This document shows positions 2,945 through 23,159 of a stretch of 64,000 bases of DNA, piece by piece. The translations under genes and the position numbers were made by a program. The first letter of the stretch is position 1. Every line of letters starts with the position of its first letter. Origin of the DNA: Aquaticitalea lipolytica (GTDB lineage Bacteria; Bacteroidota; Bacteroidia; Flavobacteriales; Flavobacteriaceae); assembly GCF_014641635.1 (NCBI RefSeq), contig NZ_BMIC01000001.1, forward strand, positions 1,060,641-1,124,640. Direction: 5' to 3'. Below the pieces are notes generated by a model. It searched no databases. It was not told the DNA's origin and saw only the letters and a program-made list of their open reading frames with translations.

Positions 2945-3697
2945 ATGAACTACATAAAGCTACTCAATGCGGCTTTTGAAAAGTTCTATTTTGATGACCG
3001 CCTAAACCCGACCCATATCAGCCTGTATATGGCCTTGTTCCAGGAATGGAACAGCAACCGTTTTGCCGATGAATTTTATGTAAACCGTAGGGAACTGATG
3101 CGTGCGGCAAAAATTGGTTCAAAATCTACCTACCATAGATGTATTGTTGATTTGAACGGTTGGCAATACCTATCCTATTTCCCATCAAACAATCCATACA
3201 AGGGTAGCAAAGTCAAGATGGCCATTATCGGAACAGGTGATGAACCGGATGTGGGACAGTACAATCCCATATTAGAACAGCTTGCGGAACAGTACTATCC
3301 CAGAGGTGTACCACTTGGGGGACACCACCTTCCCAAAAATGGTCAGGCAGTGAACCCGCACCGTCCCACCAGTGGACAAGCATTGGTATCTAATACAAAC
3401 AATACCAAACAGGAAAACTTTATAAAACAGCCAAAGGACTGTCAGGCGGTCATTGATTTTTTTGAGGAAAAGAATTTTGAAGCTGATGAAGCCGAAAAAT
3501 TTTACCTGCATTATGCCGACCGAAATTGGCAAACAGGCGATGGCGAACCGATTCGAGACTGGCGTGCCGTGGCTATCAACTGGATGGACCGTACTGAATT
3601 GTTTGACACCGAAAACAAACCAAACAAAAAACAACCGTCCCAAATCAAGGACAACCTGCGGACTACTAAAACAAAAGACTATGGACAACCCCTCTAA
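2945..3697 (+). CDS. DnaD-like replication/regulatory protein
   Basis: This 250-residue protein has an N-terminal winged-helix-like region (about 1-110; THISLYMALFQEWN, then YVNRRELMRAAKIGSKSTYHR), a low-complexity linker, and a C-terminal DnaD/DnaB-II-like helical segment with a DWRAVAINWM motif (about 200-212). Such proteins are often called transcriptional regulators in Bacteroidetes elements. The motif pairing with a downstream DnaC-like ATPase suggests a primosome-loading pair that would start replication of the excised circle. Its 3' end overlaps the ATPase start by 17 nt, which indicates translational coupling. The replication role is inference. Confidence 0.65.
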   Translation: MNYIKLLNAAFEKFYFDDRLNPTHISLYMALFQEWNSNRFADEFYVNRRELMRAAKIGSKSTYHRCIVDLNGWQYLSYFPSNNPYKGSKVKMAIIGTGDEPDVGQYNPILEQLAEQYYPRGVPLGGHHLPKNGQAVNPHRPTSGQALVSNTNNTKQENFIKQPKDCQAVIDFFEEKNFEADEAEKFYLHYADRNWQTGDGEPIRDWRAVAINWMDRTELFDTENKPNKKQPSQIKDNLRTTKTKDYGQPL

Positions 3698-4343
3698 AAT
3701 CATTGAAGGCAGCGTGGAATATTCGCTCGGAACGTTCGACGGAAAAAGCGTGGTTTACGATTTCTCGAAAATCTTGGTGTATCTGAATGCCAAGGGCAAG
3801 CTGTTGTTCGGCAAAAAGTTCAGGATTTATGATGAGGACAGGGAAATCCTATTGAAACTCTGTTCCTATTTTATCAAGGATAAAGCTTATTGCGATGCCA
3901 ACGGCATTGATATTGACAAGGGCATTCTACTTTCCGGCCCAGTGGGATGCGGTAAAACAAGCCTGATGAAATTGTTGCGGCATATTGTGCCATTACAACG
4001 ACCGTATGAAGTGATTCCTTGCAGAAACATAACTTTTGGTTTTAACCATTTGGGCTTTAAAACGGTCGAGGAATATGGCAATACCAAATTTTATTGTTTT
4101 GACGATTTGGGCATTGAACCATCTGGCCGATTTTATGGCAAGGACTTGAACGTGATGGGCGAAGTGTTACTATCACGCTATGAGCTTTACCTTACCACTA
4201 AGCGAAAAATAAAGACCCACGCTACCACTAACCTTAACGCTGAGGAACTAGAAGAACGCTATGGCAACCGTGTCCGCAGCCGGATGCGGGAACTCTTTAA
4301 TTTGATTGCTTTTGATAAAGGGGCTGGGGATAAGAGGAAGTGA
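3681..4343 (+). CDS. DnaC/IstB-like AAA ATPase (helicase-loader type)
   Basis: This P-loop ATPase of about 220 residues has Walker A GPVGCGKT at 86-93 and Walker B FYCFDDLG at about 137-144. A THATTNL sensor-1-like segment and an arginine-rich YGNRVRSRMREL motif near the C-terminus match DnaC/IstB-type loaders. The frame is open further upstream, but the ATG at 3681 is chosen because the earlier part lies inside the DnaD-like gene in another frame and has no family character. The short overlap suggests the two products are made together. It probably loads the host replicative helicase on the element; this rests on family knowledge, not on sequence alone. Confidence 0.75.
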   Translation: MDNPSKIIEGSVEYSLGTFDGKSVVYDFSKILVYLNAKGKLLFGKKFRIYDEDREILLKLCSYFIKDKAYCDANGIDIDKGILLSGPVGCGKTSLMKLLRHIVPLQRPYEVIPCRNITFGFNHLGFKTVEEYGNTKFYCFDDLGIEPSGRFYGKDLNVMGEVLLSRYELYLTTKRKIKTHATTNLNAEELEERYGNRVRSRMRELFNLIAFDKGAGDKRK

Positions 4344-14473: not shown

Positions 14474-15724
14474 TTACCATTTAAAAGCTACTTCCATCAA
14501 TTCCATTTCCGCATTTTTTATTCCCAATTCTTTGGCTACTATTTTCCAATCTTTGACCACTGAAAGCACTTCATCCAGAATAGTATTCATCTCTTCTTCG
14601 CTCAGGCGAAAATATTCGCCCACGCTTTTCACCAAATCAAAGTCCAGAGCATTATCGTCCATATCGATATTTAGTGACAAGCCGTCCTTTTCTATGGATG
14701 GGTTTAAATCATAAGCTGGTGACAATACCCAGCCCTTATCCGTCAAAATAAACCCGTGATTTCGCAAGTGGTCGTCTGTGTTGGAAATCGCAATATTGAA
14801 CACGATGCGCCGCCAAAGTTGGTGCAAGTTCGCTTCAACATCAACACCATAATTTTCAATAAACTCGACAATCTCAAGATAGCTTGGTGAGGCATTCTTT
14901 ATTGAATCTTCGGTATTGCCGGTCATCGTCATTGCCGAGGCAAAGTGTATCCGTTTTTCAACTTTTCTATCGAATCGTTTGGTCAAGAAGGTATGGTATT
15001 GTCCGCTAATTTTTTCAACTTTGGATGCTGCCATATCGATGCCGGCAGCTATGGCCAATCGATAAGCCAAAAACTCCCAAAGGGCTTTGTCAATGGTATC
15101 GGCTTTTGATGGAAACTTGGCAATCCACAGATTTTTTTGTGCGTCGAAAATATTGGCTTTGGGTCTGGCTCCACCCAAGGATGAACCAGGTGCTATTAAA
15201 ACCGCAATCCATTTTCTGATGGCCTCACTTTGGTCATCACTTTCCAGTTGTTTAGCGGCTTCCTGTAAATCGCCTAACGATGACCAAGGCGGTGTTGGGG
15301 CTTGGGCATCGTTATCCAAAAAAGGACCGTCCAAATCTGTTTTAAAGCGTAAGGCCCCCATTCGGCTTTCATCGAACACACCAAGCAAATAATCCAGTTC
15401 ATAAAGATTTTTTGGTTTTTCATTGTTTGCCCTTGCGTCTTGTGCTGCTTTTCGCTTCATCAAGGTCTTGCCCCAAGTGTCCGGCATACTATCAAGGAAG
15501 ATTCCAAAATTCTCTTTGTTGGCAGGAAACTGTGGCCCGGAATAAAACTTAATATCAGGGTCAAGCAAACGTTGTGCATCTGTTTTTAACCAATCTTTGT
15601 CATATTCAAAACTGAAGGCTTTCTTTCCTTTGGCAAAATGTGCGGATAACGTACCTATGAGGGTCGGACCTTCCAAGCCCCCCCAGTCAGCAAAAACGTA
15701 TATGTCAAATTTTCCTTCTGCCAT
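14474..15724 (-). CDS. hipA: HipA-type toxin kinase
   Basis: This 416-residue HipA-family Ser/Thr kinase is complete. A GSSLGGARPK loop (about 183-192) is the family's N-terminal glycine-rich stretch. The catalytic loop SNTDDHLRNHGF has D317/D318 and the metal-binding SPAYDLNPS has D339. HipA of E. coli phosphorylates glutamyl-tRNA synthetase and causes growth arrest; the target of this homologue is not known. It lies 5 nt downstream of a HipB-like antitoxin gene. All key motifs are intact, so it is probably active. It is expected to stabilise the conjugative element. Confidence 0.92.
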   Translation of the reverse strand: MAEGKFDIYVFADWGGLEGPTLIGTLSAHFAKGKKAFSFEYDKDWLKTDAQRLLDPDIKFYSGPQFPANKENFGIFLDSMPDTWGKTLMKRKAAQDARANNEKPKNLYELDYLLGVFDESRMGALRFKTDLDGPFLDNDAQAPTPPWSSLGDLQEAAKQLESDDQSEAIRKWIAVLIAPGSSLGGARPKANIFDAQKNLWIAKFPSKADTIDKALWEFLAYRLAIAAGIDMAASKVEKISGQYHTFLTKRFDRKVEKRIHFASAMTMTGNTEDSIKNASPSYLEIVEFIENYGVDVEANLHQLWRRIVFNIAISNTDDHLRNHGFILTDKGWVLSPAYDLNPSIEKDGLSLNIDMDDNALDFDLVKSVGEYFRLSEEEMNTILDEVLSVVKDWKIVAKELGIKNAEMELMEVAFKW

Positions 15725-15729
15725 CTTTA

Positions 15730-16017
15730 TTATAATAAATCCAGATCTTGTAGTTTTCTGCCAAAGGCATCGTCATTGGCAAGCTTCAAGAAATCATCTT
15801 GAAGATTCAGTACCCTGAGCACATTAAAATACAGGCCAATGGCCACGGCCGGGTCTCCCTTTTCTATGCGATAAAGGGTAGCCCTGTGAATGCCCGCACG
15901 TTCGGAAACTTGCTCTGTCGTGAGCTTTCTTCGCTTTCGTGCCAGTTTGATGTTTTCACCGATCTGGTCAAAAATCTTCTGGTATTTGGGAAGCAATATG
16001 GTTTTCTTAGAATTCAT
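15730..16017 (-). CDS. hipB: HipB-type XRE-family antitoxin
   Basis: This protein of about 95 residues has a Cro/CI-type HTH at about 20-75 (IGENIKLARKRRKLT, then TEQVSERAGIHRATLYRIEKG seen as QVSERAGIHRATLYRIEKG). It would bind and silence HipA and repress its own operon. The ATG at 16017 is preferred over an in-frame TTG 21 nt upstream, which would add seven residues. The gene ends 5 nt before hipA in a normal antitoxin-toxin order. Confidence 0.88.
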   Translation of the reverse strand: MNSKKTILLPKYQKIFDQIGENIKLARKRRKLTTEQVSERAGIHRATLYRIEKGDPAVAIGLYFNVLRVLNLQDDFLKLANDDAFGRKLQDLDLL

Positions 16018-16092
16018 AATGTTGCTCTTTAACGACAAAAATACATTTTATGTTGTAAATAAGCAACTTTTTAAAATGATACAGACGTGCTT

Positions 16093-17673
16093 TCAACCAA
16101 ATATCGACCTAGCCTCATCATAAATCCGCTCAAAATTGGCTTCCAAATCCGAACTTGAATATTGCTTTTTCGGATTAGGAAGTTTCTTTTGGATTTTAGC
16201 CAGTTTGAAATGTACTTTCTTATCCTTCCCATCGGCGTAGGTAATAAACTCGCCCTGTTTTAATCGGAAGAACACATCTGCCCGAATCTTCGGAATTTCC
16301 TTTTCGCCCGTAGTAATCCGGGTATCAAAATCGAGGTTATGGCCACGACTGATGCTTTTAGTCGGGTCTTTGATGATTTCAAAAAAGCGTTCGTAATATT
16401 TTGCCGTGTCCGGGTCGTTTACCTTTCCAAAGAATTGATAGGACAGATTGCTCAAAATCGCCCGGCTTGCCTTATCACCGTACATCATATCGTTTTGGAT
16501 TTTGTCTTGCATCACATAGATTGTGGCGATATCATAGCTTCTCAATGTTGCCGGAATCCGGTGCATATTTAATAAACGAATGGTGGGTGCTTCCTCCATC
16601 AACAAAAAAGACGGTCGGGAATTGCGAACGCTCATCTGTTTGGTGATGGTGTGGACGATGGTGGCAATAACCGGTGCATAAGATGTCTCGTATTTGGGAT
16701 TGTTCACCACCGAAATAACCCCTGGATTTTCTTCGCTATTGATATTTAACGGTACTTCATCTGCGGACAATGCCATAAATATGCGTTGGGTGCTGATGCG
16801 TTTTAGCGCATTGGCCAAGGTACTTTTTACACCTGCCGTTTGCCGTTCGGAATCTTTGCCACTAATGAACGCATCCGCCATAGCCCGAGACGTGGTATTG
16901 GTTTCCAAAAATTGGATGAGGCTGTCAGTGTCCAACAATTGATAAATGGCAATCAAATGGGGCAGGGTGCAATATCTAGGGTAATCGGTTTTCAGCTTCC
17001 ATATCAGTCCACCGACCAAGCCCTCGGCGGCATCGTTAAAGAATTTTGTCGTTCCAGTCGAACCACTTTCCCGTTGCTCCAAAAGGTTTTCAATCAACAC
17101 CCTAGAAACCTCGTTTACACTTTCCTCGTTCTCCAGATAACGAGGTGCAATCGGGTTTACCCTGTGGATGATACGGTCAAAGGAAATGACCTTAAAGGGA
17201 ATGTCGCCATCCTTAAAAAGCGGATAGGCCATTTCGGTAAGTTCAAAATCCTTGTAATCGTGGATGATGCCACAGAACCGATGTTTTTGGAAGTGTTTCA
17301 GAAACCCATAGACCACACTTTCCGTCTTTCCGCTTCCCGCAGAACCGATGACCGAAGCCCCTCGTTTAATGTTGTGGAGTTTGAATTGGCCTTTGGTCGT
17401 AGCAAAACTTACACTAAAACTTTCATTTCCATTGTTGAGTTCATTCGGACTATGCAGAAATACATAGAACACTGTATTGATAAGCAATAACGGACAGCCA
17501 TAATACAAGGAAGCCAATGGCCATCCCAATTCCTTTGAAACATAAAAAACCAGTAAACCGATTAGCAAGATATTCAGGGCAAAGGCATATTTGACCACCC
17601 GAAAACAGCCGTAAAAAACAATACTCAGACTGCCAACTATTATTAGAATCGATATAAGGTTGTCCGTTTGCAT
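16093..17673 (-). CDS. VirD4/TraG-type coupling protein (MobC-like)
   Basis: This type IV coupling ATPase of about 526 residues has two or three N-terminal membrane helices (about 8-80), Walker A GSAGSGKT at 110-117, and a Walker B-like FLLMEEAP. The acidic pair EE replaces the usual DE. A TFXXXD-type TRSISRGHN/TTGEKEIP region near the C-terminus is as in Bacteroidetes coupling proteins. It brings the relaxase-DNA complex to the mating channel. The ATG at 17673 lies 1 nt after the relaxase stop; a longer frame would begin inside the relaxase and is not chosen. The relaxase, BfmA-like and coupling genes form one operon. Confidence 0.9.
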   Translation of the reverse strand: MQTDNLISILIIVGSLSIVFYGCFRVVKYAFALNILLIGLLVFYVSKELGWPLASLYYGCPLLLINTVFYVFLHSPNELNNGNESFSVSFATTKGQFKLHNIKRGASVIGSAGSGKTESVVYGFLKHFQKHRFCGIIHDYKDFELTEMAYPLFKDGDIPFKVISFDRIIHRVNPIAPRYLENEESVNEVSRVLIENLLEQRESGSTGTTKFFNDAAEGLVGGLIWKLKTDYPRYCTLPHLIAIYQLLDTDSLIQFLETNTTSRAMADAFISGKDSERQTAGVKSTLANALKRISTQRIFMALSADEVPLNINSEENPGVISVVNNPKYETSYAPVIATIVHTITKQMSVRNSRPSFLLMEEAPTIRLLNMHRIPATLRSYDIATIYVMQDKIQNDMMYGDKASRAILSNLSYQFFGKVNDPDTAKYYERFFEIIKDPTKSISRGHNLDFDTRITTGEKEIPKIRADVFFRLKQGEFITYADGKDKKVHFKLAKIQKKLPNPKKQYSSSDLEANFERIYDEARSIFG

Positions 17674-17674
17674 A

Positions 17675-18706
17675 TTAGATTCCGATTGAACTTGATTTGA
17701 TGGCGATTTCCGCACCACGCTGCAACCGTTTAAAGGCACGAAGTGCCAATTGTGCTTTGTTGGTGGGAATGTTGGGCAGCATCGGAACGCCCGATTTTCC
17801 GATGATTTTAAAGGCCAATGCCTTTTCGTTGGCTGGCAGTTTCATCAAGGCGGCAAAGTAGCCTTTCGGATTCTTTACAAATTCCTTTTTGGCCTTGTAG
17901 GTCTCTGCAAAGTTGCGCTGATAACCGAAAGTTTTGTCAAAGGTCTTTTCGGCTCGTTCAAAGAATTGGTCTCGGTCAAACCCCCGATTTACGGTCTTGC
18001 CGTGCATCTCCACTTTGGATGCCTTGTGCTTGCTTCCAGGGGAAAGGCTGAACGAATTGGAGGCATCCTTTCGGCTGATGATGATATGAATATGACTTTG
18101 GTTGCCAGCTTTTTTCATTCCTTGGACGATGCGCTTGCCGTTCTGTTGGTGCGGTGCTTCCTTTTTGAGTTTGGCTATTTCCTTTTGTCGTTTTTTGATT
18201 TTGCCTTCCATCGTTCCTCTTTGAATGTTCCGGATTTCGGTTTTAAGCTGAAGAATCTTTGTGGCATAAGGTTGGTTTTCTCGAATCTCCCTGTCCGTTC
18301 CCTTAAAGCTGCGTTGGTGCTCGATTTTTGCAAAATATTTGATGTCATCGACCGAAACTGGGCGACCGTCTATTTCCCTGTTGAAACTTGCCACATAGTC
18401 CTTCATCAGCTCACGGGTGTACCGTTTCAAATCCTCGCTGTTGTCCTGAAGTCTCCGTAGCTCGGATTTGGACGGGCTGACCGTGATGGAATAGAACTTG
18501 GGTTCGTCCCGTTTGAGCTTGGCGGTATTGCCATCGATTTCGCGTACCACTTCGGCTGCGGAAATCTCATCGCCATACTGGTTGAAAAAATGCTCCATAT
18601 CCTCTTGTTCCAAACCTTGGTTTTCCTTTTCCAGATACTTCACGAAATCCGCCGAGCTTTGCGAGTAGTTCTTCCCCAAATTCTGTGCTGTGATGGTGAT
18701 GTACAT
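17675..18706 (-). CDS. Relaxase/mobilisation protein (DUF5712-like)
   Basis: This 343-residue protein matches the relaxases found beside BfmA/BtgA proteins in Bacteroidetes elements. An SHIHIIISRKD stretch carries the metal-binding H205 and H207, with a further candidate ligand H130 in KIEH. Tyr residues near the N-terminus (Y2, Y14) are candidates for the nicking residue. It would cut at oriT and stay bound to the transferred strand. Long charged coil regions occupy about 145-195. Start ATG at 18706, 11 nt after the BfmA-like stop. The assignment is by motif and context. Confidence 0.8.
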   Translation of the reverse strand: MYITITAQNLGKNYSQSSADFVKYLEKENQGLEQEDMEHFFNQYGDEISAAEVVREIDGNTAKLKRDEPKFYSITVSPSKSELRRLQDNSEDLKRYTRELMKDYVASFNREIDGRPVSVDDIKYFAKIEHQRSFKGTDREIRENQPYATKILQLKTEIRNIQRGTMEGKIKKRQKEIAKLKKEAPHQQNGKRIVQGMKKAGNQSHIHIIISRKDASNSFSLSPGSKHKASKVEMHGKTVNRGFDRDQFFERAEKTFDKTFGYQRNFAETYKAKKEFVKNPKGYFAALMKLPANEKALAFKIIGKSGVPMLPNIPTNKAQLALRAFKRLQRGAEIAIKSSSIGI

Positions 18707-18717
18707 TGTTTAAAATT

Positions 18718-19098
18718 TTAAAGTTCGTTGGTGGTGTTTTTCTTCTCCCTGAATTTGACCTCTTGCTTTTCTTCGGCATATTTCTTTTCTAGAATGAGCG
18801 GTTTCTTTTTAGGCTCATCAACCTCAAACAGGGATTGCAGCATGGCGACCGTGGGCTTGGTCTGGGTCTTTTCCACATCACGCATTATGGCGATAACGGC
18901 ATTGATTCGCTTTAACAATTTGGCCTCAATGGTACGTCCCGTTGGCCCAAAATTTTCCTTTGGGGAAATCTCGTTGTAGTGGAAAAAATCGAGAATGGTT
19001 TCCATTGCCTCGGTGTGAGTTTTGAAATGGGTGCGTGAGAATGCCTGGAAACGCTTTGCGGTTTCCTTTTTGAACCTGATACCGATGAATGAGTCCAT
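18718..19098 (-). CDS. BfmA/BtgA-family mobilisation protein
   Basis: This protein of about 126 residues has the BfmA/BtgA pattern: FIGIRFKKETAKRFQAFSRT (seen as FIGIRFKKETA and KRFQAFSRT), a THTEAMETILDFF block, then a helical and charged tail. These proteins bind oriT and help the relaxase, and resemble ribbon-helix-helix accessory factors. The ATG at 19098 is chosen; the longer frame adds about 29 residues unlike the family. It is the first gene of the mob operon, and a candidate oriT lies directly upstream. Confidence 0.8.
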   Translation of the reverse strand: MDSFIGIRFKKETAKRFQAFSRTHFKTHTEAMETILDFFHYNEISPKENFGPTGRTIEAKLLKRINAVIAIMRDVEKTQTKPTVAMLQSLFEVDEPKKKPLILEKKYAEEKQEVKFREKKNTTNEL

Positions 19099-19518
19099 AT
19101 TTCGCCGATTTGTCGCAAAATCTTCCCTGAAAATGGGCGTTTGGAGGCCGTTTGTCGCAAATCGTTGAAACCCAATACAATTCAATAATTTTCAACTACC
19201 TAAAAACCAATTAATTGCACTAAAAACGGAATACGTAACATCGCTCCGCGTGTTACCCTCTTGCTATTCCATTTCGTCCCGCTCGCGGGACAAAATTCCA
19301 TACAATCTGCTTCCCATCCAGATTGCCATTTCAGGGAAAATAATTTTCCGATATGTTATTTTCCGATGTAAAGGATTATCGGCGAAAGTCAAAAATTGGA
19401 TAATCCCTTTTAAAAATTTGATGCTGGATTTCAGCGAAGTAAAGATACGGTTTTCAATCTTTTGAGCATAGAAAAAGCCCTCATTTAATAAGGGCTGTTT
19501 TGGTTCGTTTTAGTGTTC
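19099..19518. other. Candidate oriT region with two hairpins
   Basis: This 420-nt gap upstream of the mob operon has no credible gene. It holds GTAACA (19235-19240) paired with TGTTAC (19251-19256) around a 10-nt loop, and 20 nt further GTCCCGC-tc-GCGGGAC (19276-19291). Hairpins next to a relaxase accessory gene are the usual architecture of an oriT. The nick site cannot be fixed by eye. The right part (19300-19470) shows nothing else. Confidence 0.45.
19472..19496 (-). terminator. Terminator after the radC small-ORF group
   Basis: On the minus strand AGCCCT pairs with AGGGCT around a 9-nt loop, followed by TTTTTC. It lies 23 nt after the last tiny ORF (stop at 19519) and closes the ssb-radC transcript. 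Confidence 0.7.
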
Positions 19519-19852: not shown

Positions 19853-20302
19853 TTATAAATCGCCATTATCGGCAAAACTGTAATAGTCACCATTTGGTGT
19901 TATTATCAAATGGTCGAGCAACCTCACGTCAAAAAGCTGTGCCGCCTTTTTAATTTTTTTGGTCAGGGTCAAATCCGCTTCACTTGGTCGGGTCTTATAA
20001 CTTGGATGGTTATGTGCAAGCAAAATCCCAACGGAAAGTGTCTTTAGCACAATAGCAAAAAGAATCCTCACATCGACCACCGTACCCGTTAGACCTCCCG
20101 TGGACAATGGAAAAACCCCTTTGACCTTATTGGAATTGTTCAACAACAGGATTTTAAAGGTCTCGTGCAAGCCTATCGTGTTCTTGTCCCAATGCTCGTA
20201 GAGCAATCTTGCTGCATCTTGGGAACTATTTATAGGTTCTGATTTCAAGGTTGAAATCTTTTCCCGGTAACTTATCTGAATTTCGTTAACTTTACTCTTC
20301 AT
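19853..20302 (-). CDS. radC: RadC-like JAB/JAMM-domain protein
   Basis: This 149-residue RadC-family protein is a single JAB domain. The putative metal site is AHNHPS (H97, H99) with SEAD (D110). Full RadC proteins of about 225 residues have an N-terminal HhH region; it is absent here, which is the norm for the mobile-element type. The biochemical role is not settled. The ATG at 20302 is chosen over a longer frame that would run into the hairpin at 20332-20372. It follows ssb, with an attenuator-like hairpin between them. Confidence 0.88.
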   Translation of the reverse strand: MKSKVNEIQISYREKISTLKSEPINSSQDAARLLYEHWDKNTIGLHETFKILLLNNSNKVKGVFPLSTGGLTGTVVDVRILFAIVLKTLSVGILLAHNHPSYKTRPSEADLTLTKKIKKAAQLFDVRLLDHLIITPNGDYYSFADNGDL

Positions 20303-20331
20303 TATTCTAAATTTTAAAGTGGATAATGAAA

Positions 20332-20380
20332 AGAGGGCACGCACTAATTGAAAACTGGTTTAAGTGCCCTCTTTCTTTTT
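20332..20380. terminator. Hairpin between ssb and radC (attenuator or bidirectional terminator)
   Basis: AGAGGGCAC (20332-20340) pairs perfectly with GTGCCCTCT (20364-20372). On the plus strand it is followed by TTCTTTTTTT; on the minus strand, the direction of ssb and radC, by TTTTCATT. It could reduce readthrough from ssb into radC. Confidence 0.65.
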
Positions 20381-20386
20381 TTGGTT

Positions 20387-20731
20387 TTACTTATCGCCTT
20401 TGTTTCCAAGCAATAGGATTTCATCGGCTACTACTTCGGTTACGTAGCGTTGGTTGCCGTCTTCGGTGGTGTAGGTTCTTGTTTTCAATTTCCCCGTAAT
20501 GCCCACTTCCTTGCCTTTTTCTACATACTTTTCAACAATTTCGGCGGTCTTTCCCCAAGCGACAATCGTATGCCAATTGGTGTCCGTTTGTTTTTCGCCC
20601 TTGCCGTCCTTGTAATACTCGTTGGACGCCAATGAAAAGCGGGCTACTTTCTTTCCGCTTTCAAGGTTCGTAATGGTTGGTTCTTGCCCAACATTTCCGA
20701 TTAACTGTACGTGATTTTTAATGGTACTCAT
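20387..20731 (-). CDS. ssb: Single-stranded DNA-binding protein
   Basis: This 114-residue protein is an OB-fold SSB core: HVQLIGNVGQEP, ARFSLASNEYY, TNWHTIVAWGKTAEIVEKYV (WHTIVAWGKTAE), KGKEVGITGKLKTR. It lacks the long acidic-tipped tail of housekeeping SSBs, as is usual for element-borne copies, so contacts with host repair proteins are probably limited. The ATG at 20731 begins MSTIKNHVQL; 13 extra upstream residues in frame are not family-like. It would coat the incoming strand after transfer. It lies next to the structured region at 20.8-21.4 kb. Confidence 0.92.
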   Translation of the reverse strand: MSTIKNHVQLIGNVGQEPTITNLESGKKVARFSLASNEYYKDGKGEKQTDTNWHTIVAWGKTAEIVEKYVEKGKEVGITGKLKTRTYTTEDGNQRYVTEVVADEILLLGNKGDK

Positions 20732-21500
20732 AACTAAAAGATTTAAAAGATTAATAATTTCCCTTTTCAATTCAACTTAAATTTTAAGGGGTGTTTGTTT
20801 GATTTCTTTCGTGCGCAGCACAATGGATAAAGTGGGTTTTGTCAAGACTTTCGGTGAAAAATCAGGAGTGTCTGCGACGTAGTAAAATGCTCGCATTTTC
20901 AAGGAAGTAGAAACCTTATTTTTTGCCGGAACCTGCCTTGGTCTTGACAAGTTCCATAAGGGCATTAGCAATTCTTTTAAACCATTTGCAAGGAAGCGTA
21001 CAGGCAGTTAAGCGCGTGCGGCAAATAGGGTTTAAATTAGAATTGGTTATGCACTGCCTGCTTTTCGACGCCCCGAAAAGCAATACAGGCTTTATCCATT
21101 ATAAACCCCTTAAAATGTGTAAGACAGCGGTTCGTTTTTTAGGGATTTTCGAGCAAGGGCTCAAGAAGAACTTGCCGAATATCACGTTGGGAAAACCGAA
21201 GCGGTGGCTTTCCGTTGGCAAGCGGACTCCATCCCCTTTTTGGCTCGGGAATGCAGTGTCCCTGTCCAGTCCCGATAGCTATCGGGACGGACAGGGGTAA
21301 CGGAATGGAAAGCCAAAAACGGGGATGGTGTCCAAGATGTTTTTGAGTGAAGCGCTTTTCCCGAAGTGGAGTGGCTATCCGTCTTTTTGCGGAAAGCCGC
21401 GGAACGTAGGGGAATGTGCTGAACGTCTGAAAAAATAAGGTATACTCTTTCTGTCAGGATTTTACTACTGGAACTGTAAAATCTGTTCCTCAATTTCTGT
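20732..21500. other. Non-coding structured region upstream of ssb, rich in inverted repeats
   Basis: No ORF here has a family match or convincing coding character. Several perfect or near-perfect inverted repeats are packed together: ATTTTAAGGGGT at 20781 with its complement at 21105; TTGTCAAGAC at 20839 with GTCTTGACAA at 20941; AAAATG-ctcg-CATTTT at 20884; CAGGCAGT at 21001 with ACTGCCTG at 21053; GCTTTTCG/CGAAAAGC at 21060-21081; and a long hairpin at 21226-21330. Such structure next to ssb and radC fits a replication origin or single-strand promoter of the element's leading region. Confidence 0.55.
21226..21330. repeat. Long imperfect inverted repeat with a TCCCGATAGCTATCGGGA centre
   Basis: The centre (21270-21287) is a perfect 18-nt palindrome. 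It extends to CCCTGTCC / GGACAGGG, and further out CCATCCCC...TTTTTGGCT is mirrored by AGCCAAAAAC..GGGGATGG. The structure spans about 105 nt. The central palindrome is also a familiar dispersed unit in flavobacterial genomes (from memory). Confidence 0.7.
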
Positions 21501-21836
21501 ATTAAGCCATCCCGAGTTAGTCTTTAGGTTATTTTATCATGTTGGGTTTAAATATTGAATTTCAGATTATCGAACTGAATCTAAACAAGTCCAATCACAA
21601 TTAAATTCCATGAGCAAACTTATAAATGATGCGAACCATTTTCACTCAGTATACTCTCTACATAAATGATAATTTTTCTCTTATTTTTTTGTAAATTATA
21701 GAGCGAAAACGTTTAGTCTTCCCTGTTCATTCTATCAATGCATATGAACCGTCAGGTAAGGCACAATTGTGGGCAATCATGTATAAATTAGATGTATTTA
21801 AAACTCATTAGACCAAAGCTTTATACTAAAAAATAG

Positions 21837-21950
21837 ATGAAAGTTGAAAAAGTCAAATTGGGTGAATTTTACAACAAAAGTGTCATCTCTATTAATGGCA
21901 TGATTAAATTACATGAATATGAGAGTTTTATGAAATCCCTCATGCAATAA
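21837..21950 (+). CDS. Possible small ORF, 37 residues
   Basis: The otherwise empty 21.5-22.0 kb stretch holds one clean short frame (KVEKVKLGEFYNKS, MIKLHEYESFMKS). No family or clear promoter is seen. It may be a remnant or a chance ORF in AT-rich DNA. Confidence 0.2.
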   Translation: MKVEKVKLGEFYNKSVISINGMIKLHEYESFMKSLMQ

Positions 21951-22002
21951 ATTTTTGAAACAAATAATATAATTGTGCTTTATAACCAGCTAAGGATTCA
22001 TC

Positions 22003-22010
22003 TATATTTG
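22003..22010 (+). promoter_or_regulatory. -7 box for the cyclase gene
   Basis: TATATTTG matches the TAnnTTTG consensus and lies 60 nt before the cyclase start. The nearest TTG is 27 nt upstream, which is longer than the usual spacing, so only the -7 element is well supported. Confidence 0.4.
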
Positions 22011-22070
22011 AATTTAGGGCATAAAACTAATAAAGTAAACTGAGGTAATGACCAGCTGGGTTTAATCCAT

Positions 22071-23159
22071 ATGAATAGAGAATTAAAAAAATACTTAATT
22101 ATCCTCATAAAATCATTGCTATTTTGGACAATAGCAATGTGTCTGCATGTATTTATAAGATACCTCGGTGTATATGACGAACCTGGCATTCATGTAAATT
22201 TTGAATACGAATTGTCTTTGATAGATAATCTAAAATATGGATTTCTTTCAGGAATGCTAATTGGATTTTTTTTATCGCTTGTTGAATATGTGTTCGAAAA
22301 ATATTTGGCTTACAGAATTCCTATGTGGTTGTATTTTATTTTCGAGACCATTGCGTATTTTATCGTTTTGGCTTTTGTTTTAATTATCGCCTTCTTCTTT
22401 TTTAACAAAGAAAACAATACAAATTATTTCACGAAAGAGTATCTGCGATTGGACAATAAAGTTTATTGGGCTTATTTAATTTATGCATTATATATATCCA
22501 TAGGTTTGTCATTTATACGAATTTCCACTGAATTTTTAGGAGGTAATACTTTTTGGAAAATTCTTCAAGGCAAATATCAAACTCCAAAAGAAGAAACGCG
22601 CATATTTATGTTCCTTGATTTAAAATCTTCAACAACCATAGCTGAGAAATTAGGGCATTTTAAACATAGCAAATTAATTAAAGACTGTTTTTTTGATTTG
22701 AATGAAATATTATTGAATTTTAAAGGCGAAATCTATCAATACGTTGGAGATGAAGCAGTTATTACATGGATTTACACTTTAGGAATTCAGAATAATAATT
22801 GTACAGAATTATTTTTTTCATTTAGGGACAGATTAAAAAACAGGAGTCCCTATTACCTAAAGAATTACGGTATAATACCTGAATTTAAGGCTGGTATACA
22901 TGGCGGGAAAATAATAACTGTAGAGGTAGGAACAATAAAAAAAGAAATAGCCTATCACGGCGACACCATAAATACTGCAGCACGTATTCAATCAAAATGT
23001 TCTGAATACCAACAACAGGTTATTATATCAAAAGAATTGTTCGAGGCTCTAAATAAGGACAATAGCTATAAAACTATTGACCTTGGTTCAATTCTGCTTA
23101 GGGGCAAGGAAGTTCAACTGAACTTACTCGGCTTGAAAAAGTATCATAATAAAAAGTGA
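22071..23159 (+). CDS. Membrane-bound class III adenylate/guanylate cyclase
   Basis: This 362-residue protein has four or five transmembrane segments (about 8-30, 55-75, 85-112, 130-150) and a class III cyclase domain at about 177-355. Metal-binding D183 (FMFLDLKSST) and D227 (YQYVGDEAV) are present, and GDTINTAARIQ provides the Asn/Arg transition-state region. It should make cAMP or cGMP at the inner membrane; the purine-specifying residues cannot be called by eye. Sequence is AT-rich compared with the tra genes, pointing to a separate origin as cargo. It is next to, but convergent with, the RND operon. Confidence 0.88.
   Translation: MNRELKKYLIILIKSLLFWTIAMCLHVFIRYLGVYDEPGIHVNFEYELSLIDNLKYGFLSGMLIGFFLSLVEYVFEKYLAYRIPMWLYFIFETIAYFIVLAFVLIIAFFFFNKENNTNYFTKEYLRLDNKVYWAYLIYALYISIGLSFIRISTEFLGGNTFWKILQGKYQTPKEETRIFMFLDLKSSTTIAEKLGHFKHSKLIKDCFFDLNEILLNFKGEIYQYVGDEAVITWIYTLGIQNNNCTELFFSFRDRLKNRSPYYLKNYGIIPEFKAGIHGGKIITVEVGTIKKEIAYHGDTINTAARIQSKCSEYQQQVIISKELFEALNKDNSYKTIDLGSILLRGKEVQLNLLGLKKYHNKK

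Follow-up and report, generated by a model that had tools for sequence, protein, structure and literature searches.

A conserved, covarying fold of the ssb template strand in Flavobacteriaceae conjugative elements and its possible role in the transferred single strand

The island upstream of ssb

The window (the whole stretch of DNA analysed, 64,000 nt) includes a portion of an integrative conjugative element (ICE) of Bacteroidota type, with TraG, TraM, MobC-like, MobB, BfmA/BtgA, radC and ssb. The TraM homologue and the MobC-like coupling protein both fall below their profile cut-offs. The part of the element that concerns us reads as follows.

16093-17739, - strand: MobC-type coupling protein (NF041326, below the curated cut-off; PF10412)
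17675-18706, - strand: MobB-family relaxase (NF041495, E 4e-123, above cut-off; PF18976)
18718-19185, - strand: BfmA/BtgA-family mobilization protein (NF041200, above cut-off)
19221-19454, + strand: oriT candidate, a conserved non-coding block upstream of bfmA with putative function
19235-19240 / 19251-19256, + strand: inverted repeat of the oriT candidate, GTAACA / TGTTAC, followed by CCTCTTGCTATTCC at 19257-19270
19853-20344, - strand: radC-family gene (PF04002; listed ORF, the true start may be further in)
20387-20731, - strand: ssb (PF00436, E 9e-35 for the listed ORF 20387-20770), read away from the island
20732-20780, no strand: 49-nt spacer between the ssb ATG and stem P1 of the island

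The start of ssb at 20731 was placed at the ATG common to relatives. The oriT candidate upstream of bfmA is followed in order by radC, ssb and the island, and both radC and ssb are read towards it. Elsewhere in the window, beside the mobilization genes, 14474-16038 encodes a HipA-type kinase and HTH gene pair, likely a toxin-antitoxin system.

The island itself is non-coding and consists of a branched fold at 20781-21116 followed by hairpins at 21125-21206 and about 21205-21337.

20781-21116, + strand (the ssb template strand): type I fold, or domain 1, branched, with basal stem P1 at 20781-20790 / 21107-21116
20823-20833, + strand: left arm of P3, pairing with 21089-21099; a covarying stem of 11 bp whose length does not vary, 7 of its 11 pairs doubly changed
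20834-20955, + strand: P4-P7 arm, in which P4 (20834-20849 / 20940-20955) is largely invariant in sequence
20962-21082, + strand: P8-P11 arm (20962-21052) and P12 hairpin (21059-21067 / 21074-21082)
21125-21206, + strand: second hairpin (domain 2a), covarying
21205-21337, strand unassigned: third hairpin (domain 2b), with centre GTCCCGATAGCTATCGGGAC at 21269-21288

A first-pass annotation made from the letters of the DNA had reported a cluster of inverted repeats upstream of ssb, and these are present in both the sequence and the repeat list. The 12-bp pair (ATTTTAAGGGGT / ACCCCTTAAAAT) starts at 20781 and 21105, a start-to-start distance of 324 nt, and sits inside a longer listed repeat pair; the 10-bp pair (TTGTCAAGAC / GTCTTGACAA) starts at 20839 and 20941, 102 nt apart from start to start; and the hairpin of about 110 nt has arms at 21224-21241 / 21316-21333 around its central palindrome. 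The island of about 550 nt that had been described is real, but its right edge lies further out, at about 21337, and it includes a covarying hairpin (21125-21206) that the annotation had left unnamed. When 20760-21440 was folded as DNA, the + strand reached -143 kcal/mol (z -11.7); folded as RNA, the + strand reached -273 kcal/mol (z -12.7) and the - strand -230 kcal/mol (z -14.4). In each case, none of 20 shuffles equalled the native sequence.

The annotation had also found no gene in the island, and comparison of 64 copies agrees with it: reading frames are interrupted and core lengths fall in all three modulo-3 classes. The longest stop-free run in the core spans 42-113 amino acids (median 76) out of about 118, and none of the 64 copies keeps a frame open for at least 115 codons there. 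Accordingly, the program-listed ORFs of 64-125 amino acids that span the island were judged mechanical. A short peptide starting at 20823 (ATG GAT AAA GTG GGT ...) was rejected, its ATG being lost in copies with compensating changes and core lengths not being kept modulo 3. The idea that the palindrome of the third hairpin is a genome-wide repeat was likewise discarded, as its inner 18 nt occur only once in the host genome. DNA related to this third hairpin is also found to the right of a second type of fold (type II), described below.

Covariation and strand of the type I fold

In a DNA search, 102 of 397 genomes from the family gave matches at E <= 1e-3, many of these matches being short and confined to the right-hand hairpin. 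From these we took 29 loci besides the window's own and 60 further stretches picked from the match rows, some of which were wider views of known places and some of which had been taken for the right-hand part only. Seventy-six places spanning the left fold were excised, of which 64 were distinct, the window's copy included. The carriers are Flavobacteriaceae ICEs with BfmA, MobB and MobC. A 20-base core pattern found at least 117 stretches in species-representative genomes, with 80 loci among the matches listed; most of these bear Flavobacteriaceae-type genus names, for example Maribacter, whose family was looked up. The genera also include Arenibacter, Aquimarina, Flagellimonas, Winogradskyella and Lacinutrix, which we take to be Flavobacteriaceae. 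Two records, possibly misbinned, are named instead as MAGs of Saprospirales and Gastranaerophilales. In model searches of 246 order and 296 phylum genomes, in which the share from outside Flavobacteriaceae is not given by the search output and filters lose weak matches, convincing matches were confined to Flavobacteriaceae. Two weak matches from another family at E 2e-4 (L100:1501-1606 and L101:1501-1609) were set aside as, by eye, other hairpins with TTGACA arms; none of five element proteins occurs in these short loci. The core pattern had no match in viral contigs, and blastn found no match to the island in phage records.

The first-pass annotation had held that its reading would fail if the stems were neither conserved nor covarying in related elements; they are both. 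In the 64-row alignment, 96.2% of cells in the 85-pair consensus of domain 1 are paired, and 42 of the 85 pairs have changed on both sides (332 such cells), compared with a mean of 24.0 pairs (s.d. 2.5) and 87 cells in shuffled alignments, none of 500 reaching the observed value. Kindred sequences can beat shuffles without any structure; here, the slid controls, which gave 19-29 doubly changed pairs, and the size of the gap both count against that explanation. Doubly changed pairs make up 12 of 12 in P9 and 5 of 9 in P12, and inserted hairpins are tolerated in P5-P7 and the apical hairpin of the P4-P7 arm. Domain 2a behaves similarly: among 54 distinct copies, after prior omission of 7 of the 64 in which the hairpin was absent or could not be aligned by eye, 20 of 24 pairs are doubly changed, against a shuffled mean of 13.3 and a maximum of 17 in 300.

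A G-T pair on one strand reads as A-C on the other, and the wobbles in an alignment therefore report the strand on which a fold is kept. In domain 1, the + strand has 639 G-T cells and 28 A-C cells. RNAalifold, applied to the alignment up to 21225, predicted 94 pairs at -70 kcal/mol on the + strand and 42 pairs at -26 kcal/mol on the - strand. Because predictions of this kind favour wobbles, we repeated the analysis with wobbles forbidden and obtained G-T:A-C ratios of 25:5 on the + strand and 4:19 on the - strand. In domain 2a the ratio is 156:18 on the + strand, and no pair is predicted on the - strand. The excess of G-T over A-C indicates that the type I fold is maintained on the + strand, which templates ssb. 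Thus, a conserved, covarying + strand fold lies before ssb.

This bias bears on two other explanations, both of which it strongly disfavours. One is that the island is an element of double-stranded DNA, whether a replication origin, which the first-pass annotation had named as the main alternative, or a recombination site or hot spot with inverted repeats. The dense inverted repeats beside ssb and the mobilization genes would suit such an element, but a duplex has no reason to prefer wobbles on one strand, and distant pairs covary as a single-strand fold. A double-stranded origin is less likely given a strand-specific fold, and we consider the whole class highly improbable. The other, which we rate lowest of all, is a riboswitch-like or autoregulatory leader of the ssb mRNA, formed by - strand RNA. 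It would account for the position directly upstream of ssb, and the - strand of the window does fold well alone (z -14.4). However, the - strand consensus (42 pairs, against 94) is the poorer one, its cells are A-C rather than G-T (19 versus 4) once wobbles are forbidden, and there is no conserved - strand RNA fold.

As a yardstick we used 10 Frpo-like copies from enterobacterial plasmids, F included, one further copy having been dropped. The F-plasmid Frpo is described as a proven single-strand promoter (PMC9849209, PMC11541004). On the strand complementary to ssb in F, these copies have 130 G-T and 2 A-C cells; with wobbles forbidden, the ratios are 11:2 there and 1:10 on the opposite strand. 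Wobbles make up 9.8% of standard pairs in the Frpo-like copies and 10.5% in type I. A family that includes a proven single-strand promoter thus gives the same signature, and the signature cannot separate single-stranded DNA from RNA. RNase P RNA, intended as a calibrator, yielded no usable consensus fold from a sequence-only alignment, in which 28 of 30 loci could be used and identity averaged 54%, leaving the wobble level without calibration on the RNA side.

These observations frame the strongest rival to the interpretation developed below, namely that the island gives rise, on the + strand and opposite to ssb, to a large structured non-coding RNA that would act in trans or on the element and form a new class in Flavobacteriaceae ICEs. 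The rich covariation, the wobble level of about 10%, the conserved G-U pairs (alignment columns 70/388, 73/243 and 112/195) and the many invariant loop bases are typical of RNA. By contrast, the Frpo control, which is single-stranded DNA, has an equal wobble level. Furthermore, none of the 64 copies has TAnnTTTG on the + strand in the roughly 185 nt surrounding the 5' end, a weak argument given a background of 30/193 and the relatedness of the copies. We regard such an RNA as unlikely, although well worth weighing.

Place beside ssb and replacement by a second fold

Relative to ssb, the position and orientation of the type I fold hardly vary. An ssb gene that is read away from the fold is found no more than 200 nt from it in 60 of 64 copies, and the distance to TTTTAAGGGG, measured in 58 of the 64, is 15-117 nt (median 54). 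Among the GTDB places, 65 of 80 had both P1 arms within reach; ssb adjoins 61 of these 65 and is absent beside 3, and the remaining place is at an edge. The copies without an adjoining ssb are L048, L052, L070 and the second copy of L071, to which a further copy, L099, can be added, whose 3.1 kb contain none of five tested element proteins. The first larger gene to the left is BfmA-like in L048 and L070 and radC in L052. The existence of such copies favours the non-coding RNA. The near-fixed place in the remainder, and the replacement by an unrelated fold described next, better suit a role in cis.

The surroundings of the fold vary among relatives. The motif CCC[CTA] precedes TTTTAAGGGG by a short distance in 61 of 64 copies (in the window, 20762-20766, against the left arm of P1 at 20781-20790), and pairing between the two could give a hairpin in competition with P1. 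By eye, the spacers between ssb and P1 in relatives such as L090, L015 and L042 carry variable small inserted hairpins. L032 encodes a DUF932 protein to the right of the island, and L047 a similar-looking one, again by eye. The element in L071 has two type I folds (2354-2715 and 3678-4039), recalling the two Frpo copies of F; one stands before ssb and the other to the right of a leftward gene for 180 amino acids without a Pfam match.

In related elements (L077:3433-3870, L261-L290), a second fold, type II, occupies the same site upstream of ssb, and blastn and model searches found no similarity between the two types. Type II was first met in seven loci, with DNA fold z-scores of -3.6 to -11.9; one copy, folded as RNA, reached -148 kcal/mol on the + strand and -106 on the - strand, as a rod-like hairpin. 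A family search matched 97 of 395 genomes at E <= 1e-3, short matches included, and type II adjoins ssb in 36 of 36 analysed copies with long matches. In 30 distinct copies, 13 of 67 pairs are doubly changed, against 5.6 (s.d. 1.3) in shuffles. The + strand has 192 G-T and 13 A-C cells; with wobbles forbidden, the strand signal is weak (12:6 on the + strand, 6:10 on the - strand).

A survey of MobB relaxases, independent of the island, identified 105 places in 69 of 249 genomes, 3 of the 105 being partial relaxase matches. Within 7 kb upstream there was a type I fold at 40 of the 105 places, a type II fold at 47 (a count that takes in short matches), both at none and neither at 18, a number that may be overstated as the fold lists omit the weakest matches. 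In 86 of 87 cases, the direction of the fold relative to MobB is the same. Type I is replaced by the unrelated type II at the same site.

In a typical oriT, the transferred strand carries an inverted repeat on the 5' side of the nick. The oriT candidate has this layout on the + strand, where the inverted repeat is followed by CCTCTTGCTATTCC. Among 37 rows (36 distinct copies of 43, plus the window), each base of CCTCTTGCTATTCC is 95-100% identical, compared with 57-100% per base in the left arm of the repeat and 73-100% in the right arm. From this layout we infer that the + strand is probably the transferred strand, as far as the oriT guess holds, and that radC, ssb and the island would enter the recipient first.

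A putative single-strand promoter

Along the presumed coaxial path of P4 and P3, the type I fold presents two promoter-like elements.

20944-20949, + strand: TTGACA, -35-like, in the right arm of P4 and read towards ssb; in 53 of 64 copies and 39 of 43 further copies
21100-21105, + strand: TATAAA, unpaired, -10-like; in 52 of 64 copies, its first TA in 64 of 64

P4 and P3 are contiguous on the left arm and can therefore stack. The helical spacer between TTGACA and TATAAA is 17 nt in 64 of 64 copies and in 43 of 43 further ones; because the pattern that found the latter contains TATAAA, they bear on the spacer and TTGACA alone. P3, which forms the outer portion of this spacer, shifts in sequence by compensation while its length is fixed. 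Scored against TTGACA-17-TATAAT with a spacer of 17, the path reaches 11 of 12 in 46 of 64 copies, 10 in 13 and 9 in 5. A score of 11 was reached by 18 of 20,000 shuffled paths and 10 of 18,272 linear pieces of the window; as the path was spotted by eye and post hoc, we estimate its chance as nearer 1e-2 when other paths are allowed for.

TTGACA, the 17-bp helix and the unpaired TATAAA resemble a sigma70 promoter, and their letters are not those of the Bacteroidota consensus, given as -33 TTTG and -7 TAnnTTTG in PMC2483708, which also states that promoters from other Gram-negatives are generally poor in Bacteroidota. A canonical Bacteroidota promoter was found near the island in none of 64 copies on either strand, a test that is uninformative because few control upstream regions have the motif (TAnnTTTG in only 30 of 193, the full motif in 4 of 193). 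In a linear sigma70 scan, all 10 Frpo copies scored only 6-7 of 12 and type II showed no match in common, so the scan lends the promoter path neither validation nor generality.

The first-pass annotation had proposed a promoter of the Frpo type, and the strand that carries the fold, its position and the direction of the genes all fit; no homology to Frpo was found. As with Frpo/ssi, ssb follows the island directly, in what is presumed to be a leading region with genes read towards oriT (here a candidate), and the island forms a large fold of the ssb template strand with far more G-T than A-C. The -35/-10-like elements along the type I fold may be a further likeness, with letters that are not the known consensus of the host. 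It is branched, unlike the rod-shaped Frpo, whereas type II is a rod-like hairpin, as Frpo is. When compared by blastn at E 1e-5 with 72,556 plasmid records, F (NC_002483) among them, neither the island nor type II gave a match. On present evidence, then, the island may work like Frpo, with no homology found.

Two further systems invite comparison. The sso1 of ICEBs1 and other sso elements are, like the island, strand-specific stem-loops of ICEs, with sso1 acting after transfer (PMC4595007); the likeness drawn here is one of description, and the island fold, unlike sso1, is tied to ssb. The STAXI motif (RF01728) is likewise structured and lies near ssb, antirestriction and DNA-handling genes, and its authors discussed single-stranded DNA versus RNA (PMC2864571); it is a tandem pseudoknot listed for Enterobacteriales and has no match at the island. 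At gathering scores, Rfam matched only a tRNA in the whole window. Below the gathering score, at E <= 5, the 20300-22100 region gave four matches, none inside 20781-21337, be it STAXI, Flavo-1 or any other, and type II gave one match, far below its gathering score. The lack of an Rfam match above chance in either type speaks against a known RNA family. The large survey of leading regions in PMC11541004 searched with known Frpo/ssi sequences and a sigma70 consensus, and its main text does not contain the word stem 'bacteroid'. No earlier description of such a Bacteroidota element was among the literature matches listed.

We slightly favour the view that the island acts in cis on the single strand transferred by the ICE, where it starts RNA synthesis towards ssb. 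In this model, the + strand would fold into the branched structure on entering the recipient, and the P4/P3 coaxial helix would present a promoter-like surface (TTGACA, 17 bp, pre-melted TATAAA) to the recipient RNA polymerase. RNA would start on the left arm and proceed leftward, crossing the 49-nt spacer to reach ssb and radC, ahead of the complementary strand. Conversion to double-stranded DNA would dissolve the fold and so switch the promoter off. We infer the stacking of P4 on P3, RNA polymerase as the reader and ssb as the target. Against the promoter reading, many loop bases are invariant, beyond the needs of a bare promoter helix, and the excess of G-T over A-C is equally expected of a + strand RNA.

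RNA from the fold could also serve as a primer for the second strand, a role reported for Frpo RNA (PMC9849209, PMC11541004). This overlaps with the proposal that the island is a single-strand origin (sso), or a primosome or primase loading site, for second-strand synthesis, and that transcription of ssb is not its purpose. A strand-specific fold on the presumed transferred strand is consistent with this proposal, as is the occurrence of two unrelated folds at a single site. In the ICE ICEBs1, sso1 is a stem-loop region that is specific in orientation, and single-strand origins have little sequence in common (PMC4595007). Taken alone, however, an sso leaves unexplained both the promoter-like path and why the fold stays near the start of ssb, and Frpo does both jobs in the literature. 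We consider an sso acting alone quite unlikely.

More tentatively than for the promoter reading of the island itself, we suggest that two unrelated, mutually exclusive single-strand promoter folds stand before ssb in Flavobacteriaceae elements, independent of Frpo. Such promoters would then be a convergent, general device, with the Bacteroidota RNA polymerase reading a pre-melted promoter. If the island instead acts as RNA, it would represent a covarying non-coding RNA family of about 340 nt that is absent from Rfam 15. Single-strand promoters are established for F-like plasmids. If the promoter reading is true, the elements of another phylum have their own folded solutions to early gene expression, two or more of them at one site, and the expression of conjugative DNA before it becomes double-stranded would become directly testable.
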